This document shows, piece after piece, positions 6 to 61,523 of a stretch of DNA of 64,000 nucleotides; the stretch's first letter is position 1, and the number at the start of each line of letters is the position of its first letter. A program made the position numbers and the translations under genes. Location: positions 124,001-188,000 of the forward strand of contig CAADGI010000023.1 in the NCBI GenBank assembly GCA_900696495.1, written 5' to 3'. The notes under the pieces are model-generated. The model made no database searches. It had not been told where the DNA came from and was given only the letters and a program-made list of their open reading frames with translations. This DNA comes from an uncultured Alphaproteobacteria bacterium. GTDB taxonomy: Bacteria > Pseudomonadota > Alphaproteobacteria > Micavibrionales > Micavibrionaceae.

Positions 6-73
6 GTCATTCCGGCGAAAGCCGGAATCTGGTGGCCAACTATTTACCCGATCCCGGCTTGCGCCGGGATGAC
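6..73. repeat. Two-hairpin palindromic repeat, copy 1
   Basis: Two 8-bp hairpins separated by 22 bases. The first is ATTCCGGC-gaaa-GCCGGAAT at 9-28 and the second is ATCCCGGC-ttgc-GCCGGGAT at 51-70. The element begins with GTCAT and ends with ATGAC. It lies just downstream of the clpX stop codon. Other members are at 3086-3168, 7686-7711, 47977-48096, 56227-56285 and 61410-61523. Confidence 0.85.
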
Positions 74-3102: not shown

Positions 3103-3168
3103 TGTCACCCCCGCGAAGGCGGGGGTCTGGCCTATTAAACGCCGGATGCCCGCCTGCGCGGGCATGAC
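3086..3168. repeat. Two-hairpin palindromic repeat, copy 2
   Basis: Hairpin 1 is ACCCCCGC-gaag-GCGGGGGT (3107-3126) and hairpin 2 is ATGCCCGC-ctgc-GCGGGCAT (3146-3165), followed by ATGAC. A second partial GTCACCCCCGCC lies at 3086-3097. The element overlaps the 5' end of the secreted-protein reading frame and provides part of its N-terminal coding sequence. Confidence 0.85.
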
Positions 3169-4636: not shown

Positions 4637-6058
4637 TTAAATGCGCGGCGGCTGGGCCAGCGCGGGAGTATAATTTTGCGGCGCCGAGAATTCAGAATCT
4701 TCTCGAAGGGCGTGCCCGGGTTCAGGCGCCCTGGTTCCGGTCATGAGATTTTTCTGCTGCTCGAGTTCATGGAGCATCGTTTCAAACCCGCCATAACCTT
4801 TCATTTCCTCCAGTCTGCATGTCAGGAGGCTGTCAGAACTGCGCACCTCGCGAAGTGCTTCAAATTCCGGCGGCAGAGCCATATCAGGCTTGTCCGGCAG
4901 GATATTACGGATTTCCTGCAGGGGCGGGGTTTCATCCTGGCCTCTGAAAAAATTGATGAGCCTGTCGGTGATATCGCTGGCGGCCCAGGCGCCTGCCGCG
5001 CATCCGACGATGCCGCCGGCAATGAGGCCGCCGGTGCCGCCGATCGCGTTGCCAACGCCTGGCGCCATCGTTCCAAGCGCCAGGCCGGTTGCGCCGGCCA
5101 GTTTTGCGCCGGCAACCGCACCCCCCGCGCACCCGGCAAGCATTGAAGCATCTTTCACGCCAGCTTCAGCAATTTCGCCCATGGATTTATTTTCAACGAT
5201 CGCTGTCGTTGTTTCCGGCACGGGGTTCAAGGTTTGCGCCGCCTCAAAAGCCGCGGCCTTGGCGTCGCCCCCATTCAGCAAAGTCGCGCCGCCGACCGCC
5301 GCGCCGATCCCGACATCAAAAATAATATTTTTATTTGCCTTGCCCGCGCGCCTCAGGAGGTCTTCCATGGTACCGAGTGCGCTTCCGTTTAAATCCAGCG
5401 GGCCTTTATACGTGAACTTGCCCGCTACTGAGGGATCAAGAAGACCATTCAGTTTCGCATCATGCGCCGCTGCGTTGTTTATATTGCGGGCCTCCGTCTC
5501 CAAGGCCTTGGTTTCTGCAACTTCGGCCTCGGTTAAAGGCCTTTTTTCCTTTGCCGCCTGTTCACGTATTTTCTCTGCTTGCTCGCGTAAATTATGTGTG
5601 GGCTTGTTTACTTTGAGCATATCTGCATGCTGGACCTGTATTTCAGCGATATGCCCGTTTTCTAGAACGACTTTTGTATTAATGTCTCTGTAGCCACTGC
5701 GAATGTCTGGAGTCTGATATTTGTTTTTAAAGCTGCTGACATTCATTTCTTGATGAAGGGCTGTTTGAATGGCTTCAATCTGTTTGGGGTCGTCAACGAT
5801 GAAGCGCCCGCGCACCAGGTCTTTTATCTGGCGGTGGTTTGAGTAATCGGTATTAATTTTGTTTATGGCATCTTCTTGGGTTTTTAAGGGACCCATTTCA
5901 AAGCGGACATTTTTAAATAATTCTGGATCTTTGACGCGAAGCCGTTCAAGCAGGGCATTCGCTTCTTGTTGAAGCAGTGGTTGGGATTCTTTGGCTTGCT
6001 GCAAAAGACCTTCGAGCGAAAGGTCAGGTTGAAGTTTGTCTCCCGCCATTCCCCGCAC
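4637..6058 (-). CDS. RelA/SpoT-like nucleotidyltransferase-fold protein with glycine-rich membrane segment
   Basis: 473 aa, not a standard stringent-response enzyme. Residues about 45-150 resemble a RelA/SpoT synthetase-type domain: IKDLVRGRFIVDD at 78-90 matches the D-x-x-G-R strand, GYRDIN at 122-127 matches the GYR-x-x-H region, and IAEIQVQ at 137-143 carries the expected catalytic-type Glu. A charged helical linker follows (155-200). Residues about 245-370 hold hydrophobic glycine-zipper-like runs (AGGAVAGAKLAG, GGTGGLIAGGIVG) typical of proteins that insert in membranes. There is no HD hydrolase, TGS or ACT domain. The first codon is GTG; an ATG lies three codons in. It follows the 82-aa gene by 42 bases in one transcription unit. 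A toxin or effector is a reasonable guess but unproven. Confidence 0.6.
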   Translation of the reverse strand: MRGMAGDKLQPDLSLEGLLQQAKESQPLLQQEANALLERLRVKDPELFKNVRFEMGPLKTQEDAINKINTDYSNHRQIKDLVRGRFIVDDPKQIEAIQTALHQEMNVSSFKNKYQTPDIRSGYRDINTKVVLENGHIAEIQVQHADMLKVNKPTHNLREQAEKIREQAAKEKRPLTEAEVAETKALETEARNINNAAAHDAKLNGLLDPSVAGKFTYKGPLDLNGSALGTMEDLLRRAGKANKNIIFDVGIGAAVGGATLLNGGDAKAAAFEAAQTLNPVPETTTAIVENKSMGEIAEAGVKDASMLAGCAGGAVAGAKLAGATGLALGTMAPGVGNAIGGTGGLIAGGIVGCAAGAWAASDITDRLINFFRGQDETPPLQEIRNILPDKPDMALPPEFEALREVRSSDSLLTCRLEEMKGYGGFETMLHELEQQKNLMTGTRAPEPGHALREDSEFSAPQNYTPALAQPPRI

Positions 6059-6437: not shown

Positions 6438-8303
6438 CTAAGCTTCCTCGAACAAATCCGCCAATTGATCCGCCAGCGCCTTGGCCAGTTCGTCGGCGTC
6501 CGTGATGGTCAGGGCCTTTTTGTAATAGCGCGTCACGTCGTGGCCGATGCCGATGGCGGTCAGTTCGACTTTGGACTCGCTCTCGATCCAGCGGATGACA
6601 TTGCGCAGATCCATCTCCAGATAATTCGGCGGGTTGACGGACAGCGTTGAATCGTCCACCGGCGCGCCGTCGGAAATCACCATCATGATCTTGCGCTCCT
6701 CGTTGCGCGGCGCGAGGCGGTTATAAGCCCAGACGAGGGCCTCGCCGTCGATATTCTCTTTCAGCAATCCTTCCTTGAGCATCAGGCCGAGATTGCGCCG
6801 CGTCCGGCGCATGGGCGCGTCGGCGGCCTTATATATAATGTGGCGGATATCGTTGAGGCGCCCCGGGTTGGCCGGGCGGCCCGACTGCATCCACAGGTCG
6901 CGCGATTTCCCGCCTTTCCACTGGCGCGTGGTAAAGCCGAGGATTTCAACCTTCACGCCGCATCTCTCAAGAGTTCTGGCGATGATGTCGGTCGTCATCG
7001 CGGCGATGGCGATGGGCCGCCCGCGCATCGATCCGGAATTGTCGATCAGCAATGTGACCACCGTATCGCGGAACGGCATTTCCTTTTCCTGCTTGAAGGT
7101 CAGCGGCACGTTCGGGTTGGCGACGACGCGGGCGAGGCGGGCGACATCGAGAATGCCTTCCTCGAGGTCGAACTGCCAGGTGCGGCGTTGCTTGGCCATG
7201 AGCTTGCGCATCAAACGGTTGGCGAGTTTTGTGATGACGGTCTGGTGATGCCCGAGTTGCCGGTCCAGCATCTGGCGCAGTCGCGTCAGCTCATCTTCAT
7301 CCGCAAGTTCCTTCGCATCGATTTCTTCATCGAAGGCATGGGTATAAACGGTGTACAGCCCCTCGGGTCCGGGAATGTAATCCTCGTGGAAGCGCCGGTT
7401 TTCCCCGGCCGCGATTTCGCCGTCGTCCGCGCCGCCGCCTTCGTCGGTTTCCTCAAGGCCCGCCGCCGCGTCGCTCTCGGCTTCGCCTTCGCCCATTTCA
7501 TCGGAAGGGTCTATGGATTCCTTGGCCTCCTTGGATTCTTTGCCTTCTTTCGCGTCCCTTTGCGACTGGCTGTCATTGTCGCTGGATTCCTCTTCGCCCG
7601 CATCGGCCTCGCCGGGATCGAACTGAAGGGCTGTAATCAGTTTTTTTGCAAGTGTAGCAAAAGCAGCCTGGTCGTTCACAAGACTGTCATCCCGGCGAAA
7701 GCCGGGATCCATTGCGCCAAAGGAGGAATGGAAAAACTCGCCAAAATTTTTGCCGAGCTTTTCCTTCAGCCACGGCTGCCACATCTTCACCACATTCTCG
7801 GCGGAAGGGGGAATGGTTTCACCCGTAAGCGCAAGCCGCGTCATGACATGCAGCGCCTCGTTCAGCGGCACCTGTTCGCGTTCATGGGCGAGGCCGAAAC
7901 CGAGGCGACGGCACTTTTCCTCGAGCACGGCGTTAAGGTTATGCGCGACGCCCGACATGTCGCGATGGCCGATCGCCTCGACGCGGGCCTGTTCCATGGC
8001 ATTGAAGGCCTCGAGCGCGGCGCGGCTTTTCGGCGCGAGTTTGCGGTGCGTCTTTTCATCGTGATGGGCGATGCGCAGCGCCTGCGCATCGGCGCAGCCG
8101 CGAACCAGGCGGAGCGATTGCGCGTTCATGTTGTAATCCGGCAGGGGCAAACGCGGCTTGCCGGCGGTAACGACCCGGCCGATGGGCGGTTCGGAATTAG
8201 AAAAGGTTACGTCGAGATCGCGCAAACCCGCGATGGTGCGCACGCTCGCCGCTGTGGCATTCTTGAATTCCTCGAAATGAGAGCCTGTGTCGGGTTTATT
8301 CAT
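6438..8303 (-). CDS. cobT: Cobaltochelatase subunit CobT
   Basis: CobT, with the AAA+ subunit CobS, forms the chaperone-like motor that works with CobN to insert cobalt into hydrogenobyrinic acid a,c-diamide in aerobic cobalamin synthesis. The 621-aa protein has the N-terminal CobT domain, a long acidic Glu/Ser/Asp-rich linker (about residues 235-305) and a C-terminal von Willebrand A domain with the MIDAS motif DNSGSM. An ATG at 8303 ([10 protein letters not shown]) is preferred to the upstream frame. Near residues 205-215, just before the acidic linker, it contains MDPGFRRDD, which is the in-frame translation of a palindromic repeat. cobN is not in the window, and in bacteria lacking it CobS/CobT homologues may have other roles. 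Confidence 0.93.
7686..7711. repeat. Palindromic repeat half-element inside cobT
   Basis: GTCAT followed by ATCCCGGC-gaaa-GCCGGGAT (hairpin 7689-7708) matches hairpin 1 of the two-hairpin repeat family. It lies in frame within the cobT coding sequence and encodes the residues DPGFRRDD between the N-terminal domain and the acidic linker. Confidence 0.85.
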
Positions 8304-8757: not shown

Positions 8758-9807
8758 TTAAGTAACCGCCACGTTCCTGATCGCGCTCGCGGGCAGTTCG
8801 ACATCGAAACAGCGCTGGTAATATTCCGCGATGATCGGGCGCTCGGTCTCGTCGCATTTATTCAAGAACGATAATTGAAACGCCAGCTCGCGATTTTTGA
8901 AAATCTGCGTATTCTCGATCCATGCCAGCACGGTGCGCGGCGACATCAGCGTCGACAGATCGCCATTGATGAAGCCTTCACGAGTCATGTCGGCGACGCG
9001 CACCATCTTGCTCACCATATCCTTGCCTGCATCATTGTTCAGGTTCGGGAATTTCGCGAGCATGATGTTCATCTCATCGTCGTGCGGCAGGTAGTTCAGC
9101 GTCACCACCACGTTCCAGCGGTCCATCTGGCCCTGGTTGATCTGCTGCGTGCCGTGATAAAGCCCGGTCGTATCGCCGAGACCCACCGTGTTCGTCGTCG
9201 CGAATAATCTGAATGCCGGGTGCGGGCGGATGATCATGTTCTGGTCGAGCAGGGTGAGACGCCCTTCGGCTTCCAGCACGCGCTGGATTACGAACATCAC
9301 GTCCGGGCGTCCGGCGTCATATTCATCAAATACGAGCGCGCAGGGGTGTTGAATCGCCCAGGGAAGCAATCCTTCCTTCCACTGCGTGATTTGCTTGCCT
9401 TCCTTCAGGACGATCGTGTCCTTGCCGATCAGGTCGACGCGGGAGACGTGGGAGTCGAGGTTGATCCGCACGCACGGCCATTTCAGCCGCGCCGCGACCT
9501 GTTCGATATGCGTCGATTTCCCGGTGCCGTGATAACCCTGGATCATCACGCGGCGGTTATGCGCAAAGCCGGCCAAAATCGCCAATGTCGTGTCGTGGTC
9601 GAACTGGTACGTTTTGTCGATGTCGGGGACGTTCGGGTGGTCGTCCTTGAACCCCGGCACCGCCCAGTCGACGTCGAGGCCGAAGGTTTTCTTCACATCA
9701 TATTTCGTATCGGGAATGGTCGTGTATTTGCCCGTGTTCGGCGTCAGCTGCGTGACGTCGAACGACATGGTCATGGGCTCTTTGTCTTTCTGGATTTTCT
9801 CGGCCAT
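8758..9807 (-). CDS. cobS: Cobaltochelatase subunit CobS
   Basis: AAA+ ATPase of the MoxR/CobS type, partner of CobT in the cobalt chelatase complex. The 349-aa protein has Walker [10 protein letters not shown] at residues 91-99, Walker [11 protein letters not shown] and a sensor-like ATTNTVG. The N-terminal 60 residues resemble the CobS-specific extension. The gene starts one base after the stop of the upstream J-domain gene, so the two are co-transcribed, an arrangement common in Alphaproteobacteria. The orphan gene at 8394 separates it from cobT. Confidence 0.95.
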
Positions 9808-36558: not shown

Positions 36559-36668
36559 CGTCATTGCGAGGACCCCGGGTCCCGACCCGGGGGACGAAGC
36601 AATCCATTTTTAAAGTGGATCGCCACGCCGCCCAAATTTATTCTAGATTTTGACGGCTCGCGATGACG
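36559..36668. repeat. CGTCATTGCGAG-type repeat, copy 2
   Basis: The inverted ends CGTCATTGCGAG and CTCGCGATGACG bound the element. The internal parts ACGAAGCAATCCA and TGGATCGCCACGCC match the copy at 1996-2076, with an added CCCGGGTCCCGACCCGGG palindrome. It occupies almost all of the gap between lysA and the TIGR02302 gene. Confidence 0.8.
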
Positions 36669-46800: not shown

Positions 46801-46892
46801 CGTCATCGCGGGCCACCGAAGGTGGCGTGGCGATCCAGCTGGAAAGCAACATGACTCTGGATTGCTTCGTCACTTCGTTCCTTGCGATGACG
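46801..46892. repeat. CGTCATTGCGAG-type repeat, copy 3 (reverse orientation)
   Basis: On the reverse strand it reads CGTCATCGCAAGGA, then CGAAGCAATCCA and TGGATCGCCACGCCACC, ending CCCGCGATGACG. It lies directly upstream of prfA and supplies the spurious upstream in-frame codons of that gene. Confidence 0.8.
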
Positions 46893-46903
46893 AGGTTAAA
46901 AGT

Positions 46904-47976: not shown

Positions 47977-48096
47977 CGTCATTCCAGCGAAAGCTGGAAT
48001 CCATGGAAAGATTGAGAATAGTCTATACAATTCAGCGCAAATGGTTGGATGGATCCTGCCGCAGTTTACCCCTGCGTAGGCAGGGGCAGGGATGAC
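47977..48096. repeat. Two-hairpin palindromic repeat, copy 4
   Basis: Hairpin 1 ATTCCAGC-gaaa-GCTGGAAT (47981-48000) shows a paired G-C to A-T change relative to copy 1, keeping the stem. Hairpin 2 CCCCTGC-gtag-GCAGGGG (48069-48086) is followed by GGGATGAC. The 68-base spacer is longer than in the others. It fills the prfA-prmC gap. Confidence 0.8.
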
Positions 48097-57390: not shown

Positions 57391-57550
57391 CGGAGACGTG
57401 GCCGAGTGGCTGCCCGCGCGCGAAGGCGCGCAAAATAAAGGGTGGCCCGGGCTGATGATCCGGATTAGTGCGGAGACGTGGCCGAGTGGCTGCCCGCGCG
57501 CGAAGGCGCGCAAAATAAAGGGTGGCCCGGGCTGATGATCCGGATTAGTG
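57391..57550 (+). repeat. Two tandem 80-bp units with 5' tRNA-Ser fragments
   Basis: Two identical 80-bp units (57391-57470 and 57471-57550) each begin with C plus the first 21 bases of the tRNA-Ser gene at 57552. Both continue with a GC-rich palindrome (GCGCGC-gaag-GCGCGC), an AAATAAAGGG linker and GGCCCGGGC, and end GATCCGGATTAGTG. The real tRNA follows as a third start in the same spacing but then diverges from the repeat. Strictly identical units suggest a recent duplication. Confidence 0.9.
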
Positions 57551-57551
57551 C

Positions 57552-57643
57552 GGAGACGTGGCCGAGTGGCTGAAGGCGGCAGGTTGCTAACTTGTTGTAC
57601 GGATTAAACCGTACCGGAGGTTCGAATCCTCTCGTCTCCGCCA
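57552..57643 (+). tRNA. tRNA-Ser (anticodon GCT)
   Basis: A 92-base class II tRNA with a 7-bp acceptor stem GGAGACG/CGTCTCC, an anticodon loop TTGCTAA (anticodon GCT, for AGC/AGT codons), a long variable arm GTACGG-attaaa-CCGTAC, T arm GGAGG-TTCGAAT-CCTCT, discriminator G and an encoded CCA. All arms pair correctly. Confidence 0.96.
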
Positions 57644-61409: not shown

Positions 61410-61523
61410 CGTCACCCCCGCGCAGGCAGGGGTCCGGCAATAACTAAAGCGCGCGGCAAGAACCGCGCACATTATGGATCCCCGCCGTTCAAGCGCGGCT
61501 GACGCCGCGCCGCGGGGATGACG
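61410..61523. repeat. Two-hairpin palindromic repeat, copy 6 (expanded)
   Basis: Hairpin 1 ACCCCCGC-gcag-GCAGGGGT (one mismatch) starts with CGTC. The second arm pair ATCCCCGC and GCGGGGAT encloses a nested GCGCGG-ctgac-GCCGCGC hairpin and is followed by GACGG. It lies between mraZ and gatB. Confidence 0.75.

Follow-up and report, generated by a model that had tools for sequence, protein, structure and literature searches.

Two described systems are close to the palindrome that is analysed here. The first is the CGTC-1 class of REP elements, which have a CGTC, TGTC or CCTC tag, an 8-bp stem starting with AT, a 4-base loop and mostly a CCA tail, and which form pairs mostly with the tags outside (HH) (Di Nocera, De Gregorio and Rocco, 2013, PMC3733652). 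In the accessible part of that paper, the list of CGTC-1 hosts includes Micavibrio aeruginosavorus, intragenic REPs are reported in several species and no associated transposase was found. The second is the palindromic elements (RPE) of Rickettsia, among which the same text identifies R. conorii RPE-6 as CGTC-1 and RPE-4 as CGTC-4. Different RPE groups have been found at the same sites in Rickettsia genes, and an ATGAC motif was noted; the part of that study available to us weighs insertion hotspots against one diverged insertion, favouring a common origin while keeping hotspots possible (Matsutani and colleagues, PMC3767692).

In the stretch of DNA under study (the window, 64,000 nt in all), a perfect 8-bp stem starting with AT, with a loop of 4 bases (7689-7708) and a short unpaired tail CCA (7709-7711), lies within a cobT ORF that has strong Pfam matches (CobT, 1.1e-63; CobT_C, 8.8e-95) and is 621 aa long when counted from ATG (Table 1). 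As an earlier note on this DNA had claimed, the palindrome sits in frame, encodes DPGFRRDD and leaves the frame intact. Going by its published description, the CGTC-1 REP has the same tag type, stem, loop and tail as the cobT copy, and it has in common with the wider family of this genome the outward-tag pairs (45/45 here) and the intragenic copies, the cobT copy itself being single; there is no defining difference between the two, and on sequence grounds the genome's repeat fits the CGTC-1 family. RPE-6 and RPE-4, which belong to another lineage and are likened here by description, are likewise in-frame palindromes in unrelated genes, and the parallel with Rickettsia drawn in the earlier note is a close one, RPE-6 being equated with CGTC-1 in the accessible text of PMC3733652. 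The mark of an RPE-type insertion, that is, an insert missing in orthologues with the frame kept, was found in CobT, ArgC, AnmK and DusA. An in-frame palindrome in cobT is thus a known kind of event, described in Rickettsia and in other bacteria. GTAG REPs, or REPINs with RAYT, also have an inverted hairpin pair as their dispersed unit, but their tag is of the GTAG type, whereas it is TGTC/CGTC here, which places the present family outside that group.

Table 1. Parts of the cobT element, its gene neighbourhood, further family members in the window (positions) and in-frame copies elsewhere in the genome (locus handles)
Feature	Position or locus	Strand	Basis or type
Tag TGTC, unpaired	7685..7688	+	sequence; a variant of the CGTC REP tag
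Hairpin stem ATCCCGGC / GCCGGGAT, loop GAAA	7689..7708	+	sequence, family matches, RNA fold
CCA tail and putative spacer-like remnant CCATTGCGCCAAAGGAGGAATGG, second hairpin absent	7709..7731	+	inferred from spacers of 45 pairs
DPGFRRDD codons, CobT residues 199-206	7686..7709	-	translation
cobT, cobaltochelatase subunit, 621 aa, frame intact	6438..8303	-	Pfam; solved relative 9uka_G
CobS-like AAA ATPase gene adjoining cobT	8758..9807	-	Pfam CobS_N 7.7e-09, AAA_5 2.5e-11
Family hairpin pair, tags outward, spacer 20 nt	7..72	.	repeat survey
Family hairpin pair, spacer 17 nt	3105..3167	.	repeat survey
Family single hairpin	47979..48001	+	repeat survey
Family single hairpin	61412..61434	+	repeat survey
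DinG-like helicase	L078		in-frame hairpin pair
AnmK	L083		in-frame single hairpin
ArgC	L111		in-frame hairpin pair
Dxs	L122		in-frame hairpin pair
YgfZ/CAF17-like protein	L126		in-frame hairpin pair
ELM1-like protein	L130		in-frame hairpin pair
DusA	L141		in-frame hairpin pair

The palindrome is dispersed in its own genome, where a 24-mer of the cobT copy has 69 matches (<=3 mismatches), 11 of them exact, with 0 for a reversed-pattern control, and where a degenerate family pattern has 182 matches (<=2 mismatches; control 0); within the window, a generic palindrome gave 4 matches (<=3 mismatches) against 0.88 expected. At <=1 mismatch, the family pattern is matched 144 times in the own genome (G000), 26 and 46 times in two congeners from the same genus (G001 and G002, respectively) and at least once in 11 of the 17 genomes searched; of the 14 genomes outside the genus, 6 have no match at this threshold. 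In a survey of 114 places, 133 of the 182 hairpins counted were covered and grouped into 88 units; 43 of these are single hairpins and 45 are pairs, with tags outward in every pair and spacers of 13-23 nt (21 pairs), 28-31 nt (10), 40 nt (1) or 48-51 nt (13). In most of the family copies listed, TCA is preceded by TG or CG, and tails that are CGG, GGG or TGG-like are also present among the other copies. The earlier note had assigned the cobT palindrome to a two-hairpin family; membership holds, but the copy in cobT consists of one hairpin followed by ~20 nt of spacer-like sequence. Downstream of its CCA comes CATTGCGCCAAAGGAGGAATGG, which is similar to the spacer of a hairpin pair, and then no second hairpin, and the cobT copy is probably half of a two-hairpin unit.

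The pair at 3105-3167 is at the very start of an ORF for a predicted secreted protein in G000, as is its counterpart in G002 (L231/L232), and the repeat could supply start codons there. Another pair (L106) is located between a putative groES and a putative groEL gene.

A CobT match is present in 53 of 58 genomes, the own genome included, from which the 29 best relatives were taken and joined by 12 records to give 41 CobT rows (at least four of these rows repeat a genome by coordinates). The earlier note had proposed to look for a gap in close relatives, with the same residues in relatives as the refuting outcome, and a gap is what was found: both congeners, whose CobT proteins are 90% identical to this one (88% by blastp), are without 39 nt, or 13 aa (net), at the element site, and PGFRR occurs in 0/41 relative rows. 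Because the site is empty in both congeners and the residues are missing from all relative rows, sequence comparison supports the view that the cobT segment is an insertion of the dispersed palindrome; transposition itself is presumed, the congeners having diverged too far for its exact ends or any target duplication to be placed. The excess over most relative rows is smaller, ~10 residues, because those rows have 6 residues in 16 columns, and the solved CobT 9uka_G, which aligned over 10-620, has two short gaps at the element (5 residues in total). An AlphaFold2 model of CobT from 12 sequences, weak overall (mean pLDDT 59.5, pTM 0.40), puts pLDDT below 50 at 195-205, between a helix at 187-193 and helices at 207-210 and 212-225, and a low-confidence linker (231-329) comes after the element site. 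What had been described as a position between the N-terminal domain and the acidic linker can thus be refined to a segment among predicted helices, ahead of that linker.

CobT is not the only protein concerned, since at least eight of the 88 surveyed units lie in frame in conserved genes of G000. The further in-frame copies that the earlier note had proposed to look for are there, in seven other conserved genes (Table 1), and its suggestion that such elements can add peptide segments to proteins in this genome is supported. Six of the eight inserts are pairs, and those of AnmK and CobT are single hairpins. The host proteins, which have no evident function in common, were named from Pfam matches and solved relatives, the names DinG and YgfZ being in part presumptive. 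A codon-score screen flagged 12 of the 88 units as in frame, of which five were accepted as insertions, and the copies in ArgC, YgfZ and DusA escaped it, one flank of each falling short of the threshold; the seven other flagged units (L086 at 1201, L094, L101, L103, L106, L138 and L145) have intervening stops and were read as neighbouring genes. Examination of 29 ORFs running across hairpins (the two longest per hairpin kept) led to eight being accepted, a number which is a lower limit because the remaining ORFs were judged by eye to be antisense or N-terminal extensions. Among the 10 ORFs scanned with Pfam, those of L087 and L119 gave no match, and that of L086 was set aside, the element lying upstream of its enoyl-CoA hydratase domain.

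For five of the hosts, a search for orthologues in G000 and 13 other genomes found Dxs, DusA, AnmK and YgfZ in 14/14 and ArgC in 10/14. Both congeners have an empty site in ArgC (net 63 nt), AnmK (51 nt) and DusA (93 nt). At least eight in-frame palindromes are present in one Micavibrio relative, four of which (CobT, ArgC, AnmK, DusA) sit at sites that are empty in both congeners. Not every copy is recent, since Dxs has an insert in each of the three species G000, G001 and G002 (the G001 copy being degenerate, by reading of the sequences) and the DinG-like insert is common to G000 and G002. In the latter case, compared by means of a G002 repeat locus (30 of the 46 G002 matches were covered), the insert peptide is 22/27 identical between the two species against 370/397 and 268/284 in the flanks (638/681), that is, less conserved than its flanks (Fisher p 0.03).

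The reading that we consider quite likely is that the cobT element is a selfish CGTC-1 hairpin dimer, moved by a trans-acting enzyme and tolerated where the frame is kept in a loop. A CGTC-1 REP would spread in the form of two inverted hairpins whose TGTC/CGTC tags face outward, presumably moving as DNA via an enzyme acting in trans. One copy would have entered cobT, most simply after the lineage had split from the two sequenced congeners, and would have kept the frame in a loop between helices, with a net gain of 13 aa over these congeners; the second hairpin would be missing from it, one hairpin and part of the spacer being left. Frame-breaking insertions would be removed by selection, and in-gene copies would survive where the frame is open and the loop tolerant; of the six reading frames of the consensus hairpin, five are open and the sixth ends in TGA. 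The peptide added to CobT may thus be a tolerated passenger. As for the enzyme, a search for PF01797 (Y1 transposase) gave no match in G000 (a 25-contig assembly), G001 or G002 and hence no RAYT candidate in the own genome, and this family is matched in 3 of the 17 genomes searched.

Less expected than the in-frame REPs themselves is what the Dxs and YgfZ loops hold in another genus. In G013, which belongs to that genus, a repeat of a different family, GATCCCTCGACTKCGCTCGGGATGAC, occupies the same two loops; it has 13 matches in that genome (<=3 mismatches; control 0), two of which are the Dxs and YgfZ sites, and it is matched three times in G000, twice in G001, three times in G002 and once in G006, with none in G008, G009 and G012. 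Reading of the sequences adds another CGTC-1-like insert at the same loop in DusA of G013, and a third, single-hairpin type of insert in YgfZ of both congeners. This recalls Rickettsia, where gene sites are shared by different RPE groups and an ATGAC motif was noted (as far as PMC3767692 is accessible); the available part of PMC3733652 does not describe the Dxs/YgfZ loops being used again by a second family in a different genus. A tentative reading, for which the case is real and which we would not yet bet on, is that in core enzymes (Dxs, YgfZ, DusA) particular loops serve time and again as docking or swapping sites for different GTCAT/ATGAC-ended repeat families across genera, the loops being hit repeatedly, or an old palindrome being replaced, in different lineages. 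The chance that two of 13 copies meet eight sites within 15 nt is roughly p ~1e-6, rising to ~1e-4 when insertion is allowed in only a tenth of the genome, both values being post hoc and assuming independence. Against this, CobT, ArgC and AnmK have no loop reuse in the rows read, and common sites would be expected just as well from a single ancestral insert that later diverged or was replaced through recombination. The Dxs loop may also simply be tolerant, since two (L157, L159) of the other 10 genomes, none of which has a palindrome there, have a few extra residues. With a second family that is dispersed in the genome carrying it, the present case favours, though not decisively, the entry or exchange of repeats at loops that are preferred or tolerant. 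If loops do serve in this way, loop sequences of core enzymes would be repeatedly rewritten by mobile hairpins. The Dxs/YgfZ case offers a concrete test of hotspot insertion versus one diverged ancestral insertion, the two alternatives weighed in the available text of PMC3767692.

That the insert is instead kept by selection, because the hairpin acts in the cobT mRNA or because the peptide has been put to use, seems unlikely to us. The cobT segment does fold at -21.3 kcal/mol (z -2.33), but 8 of 200 shuffles fold equally well and any such palindrome folds; REPs near genes have been proposed as RNA elements (in the part of PMC3733652 at hand), and the Dxs and DinG-like inserts are kept in related species, but the DinG-like peptide is, as described above, less conserved than its flanks and the eight host proteins have no obvious function in common. 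Roles for the hairpin as RNA, or for the added peptide, are possible but unsupported. That the palindrome arose by chance within normal CobT sequence, or that the congeners lost residues of ancient origin, can be dismissed as extremely improbable, since the segment has the exact family consensus with tag and tail, family controls are 0, PGFRR is in none of the 41 rows and both congeners have the gap.

To return to the selfish hairpin, which we favour, two of its hosts also carry in-frame extra segments of other kinds. DusA has a second one, LPLPEGEGDP-like, in G000 (L141/L174) and G001 (L176), not in G002. Among 245 loci, its pattern matches only DusA of G000 (L026, L141 and L174 being one place) and of G001 (L176), and there is one 1-mismatch site in the window; because matches are confined to these places, a dispersed nature of this second insert is unsupported. 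AnmK of G000 (L083) carries PPHPPSSHRGEGRGEGG, another kind of in-frame extra segment, absent in both congeners.

The window holds other features worth recording. An ORF near cobT (4637-6058) has a RelA_SpoT domain match (1.1e-07), and another dispersed inverted-repeat family, with CGTCAT/ATGACG-like ends, is found at 1995-2076, 36582-36632 and 46801-46893. An Rfam search of the window returned a tRNA match only. Finally, at 57391-57643 an 80-bp unit is present in two perfect tandem copies, followed by the beginning of a third that runs into tRNA-Ser (gct) at 57552-57643; this is a partial tRNA duplication.
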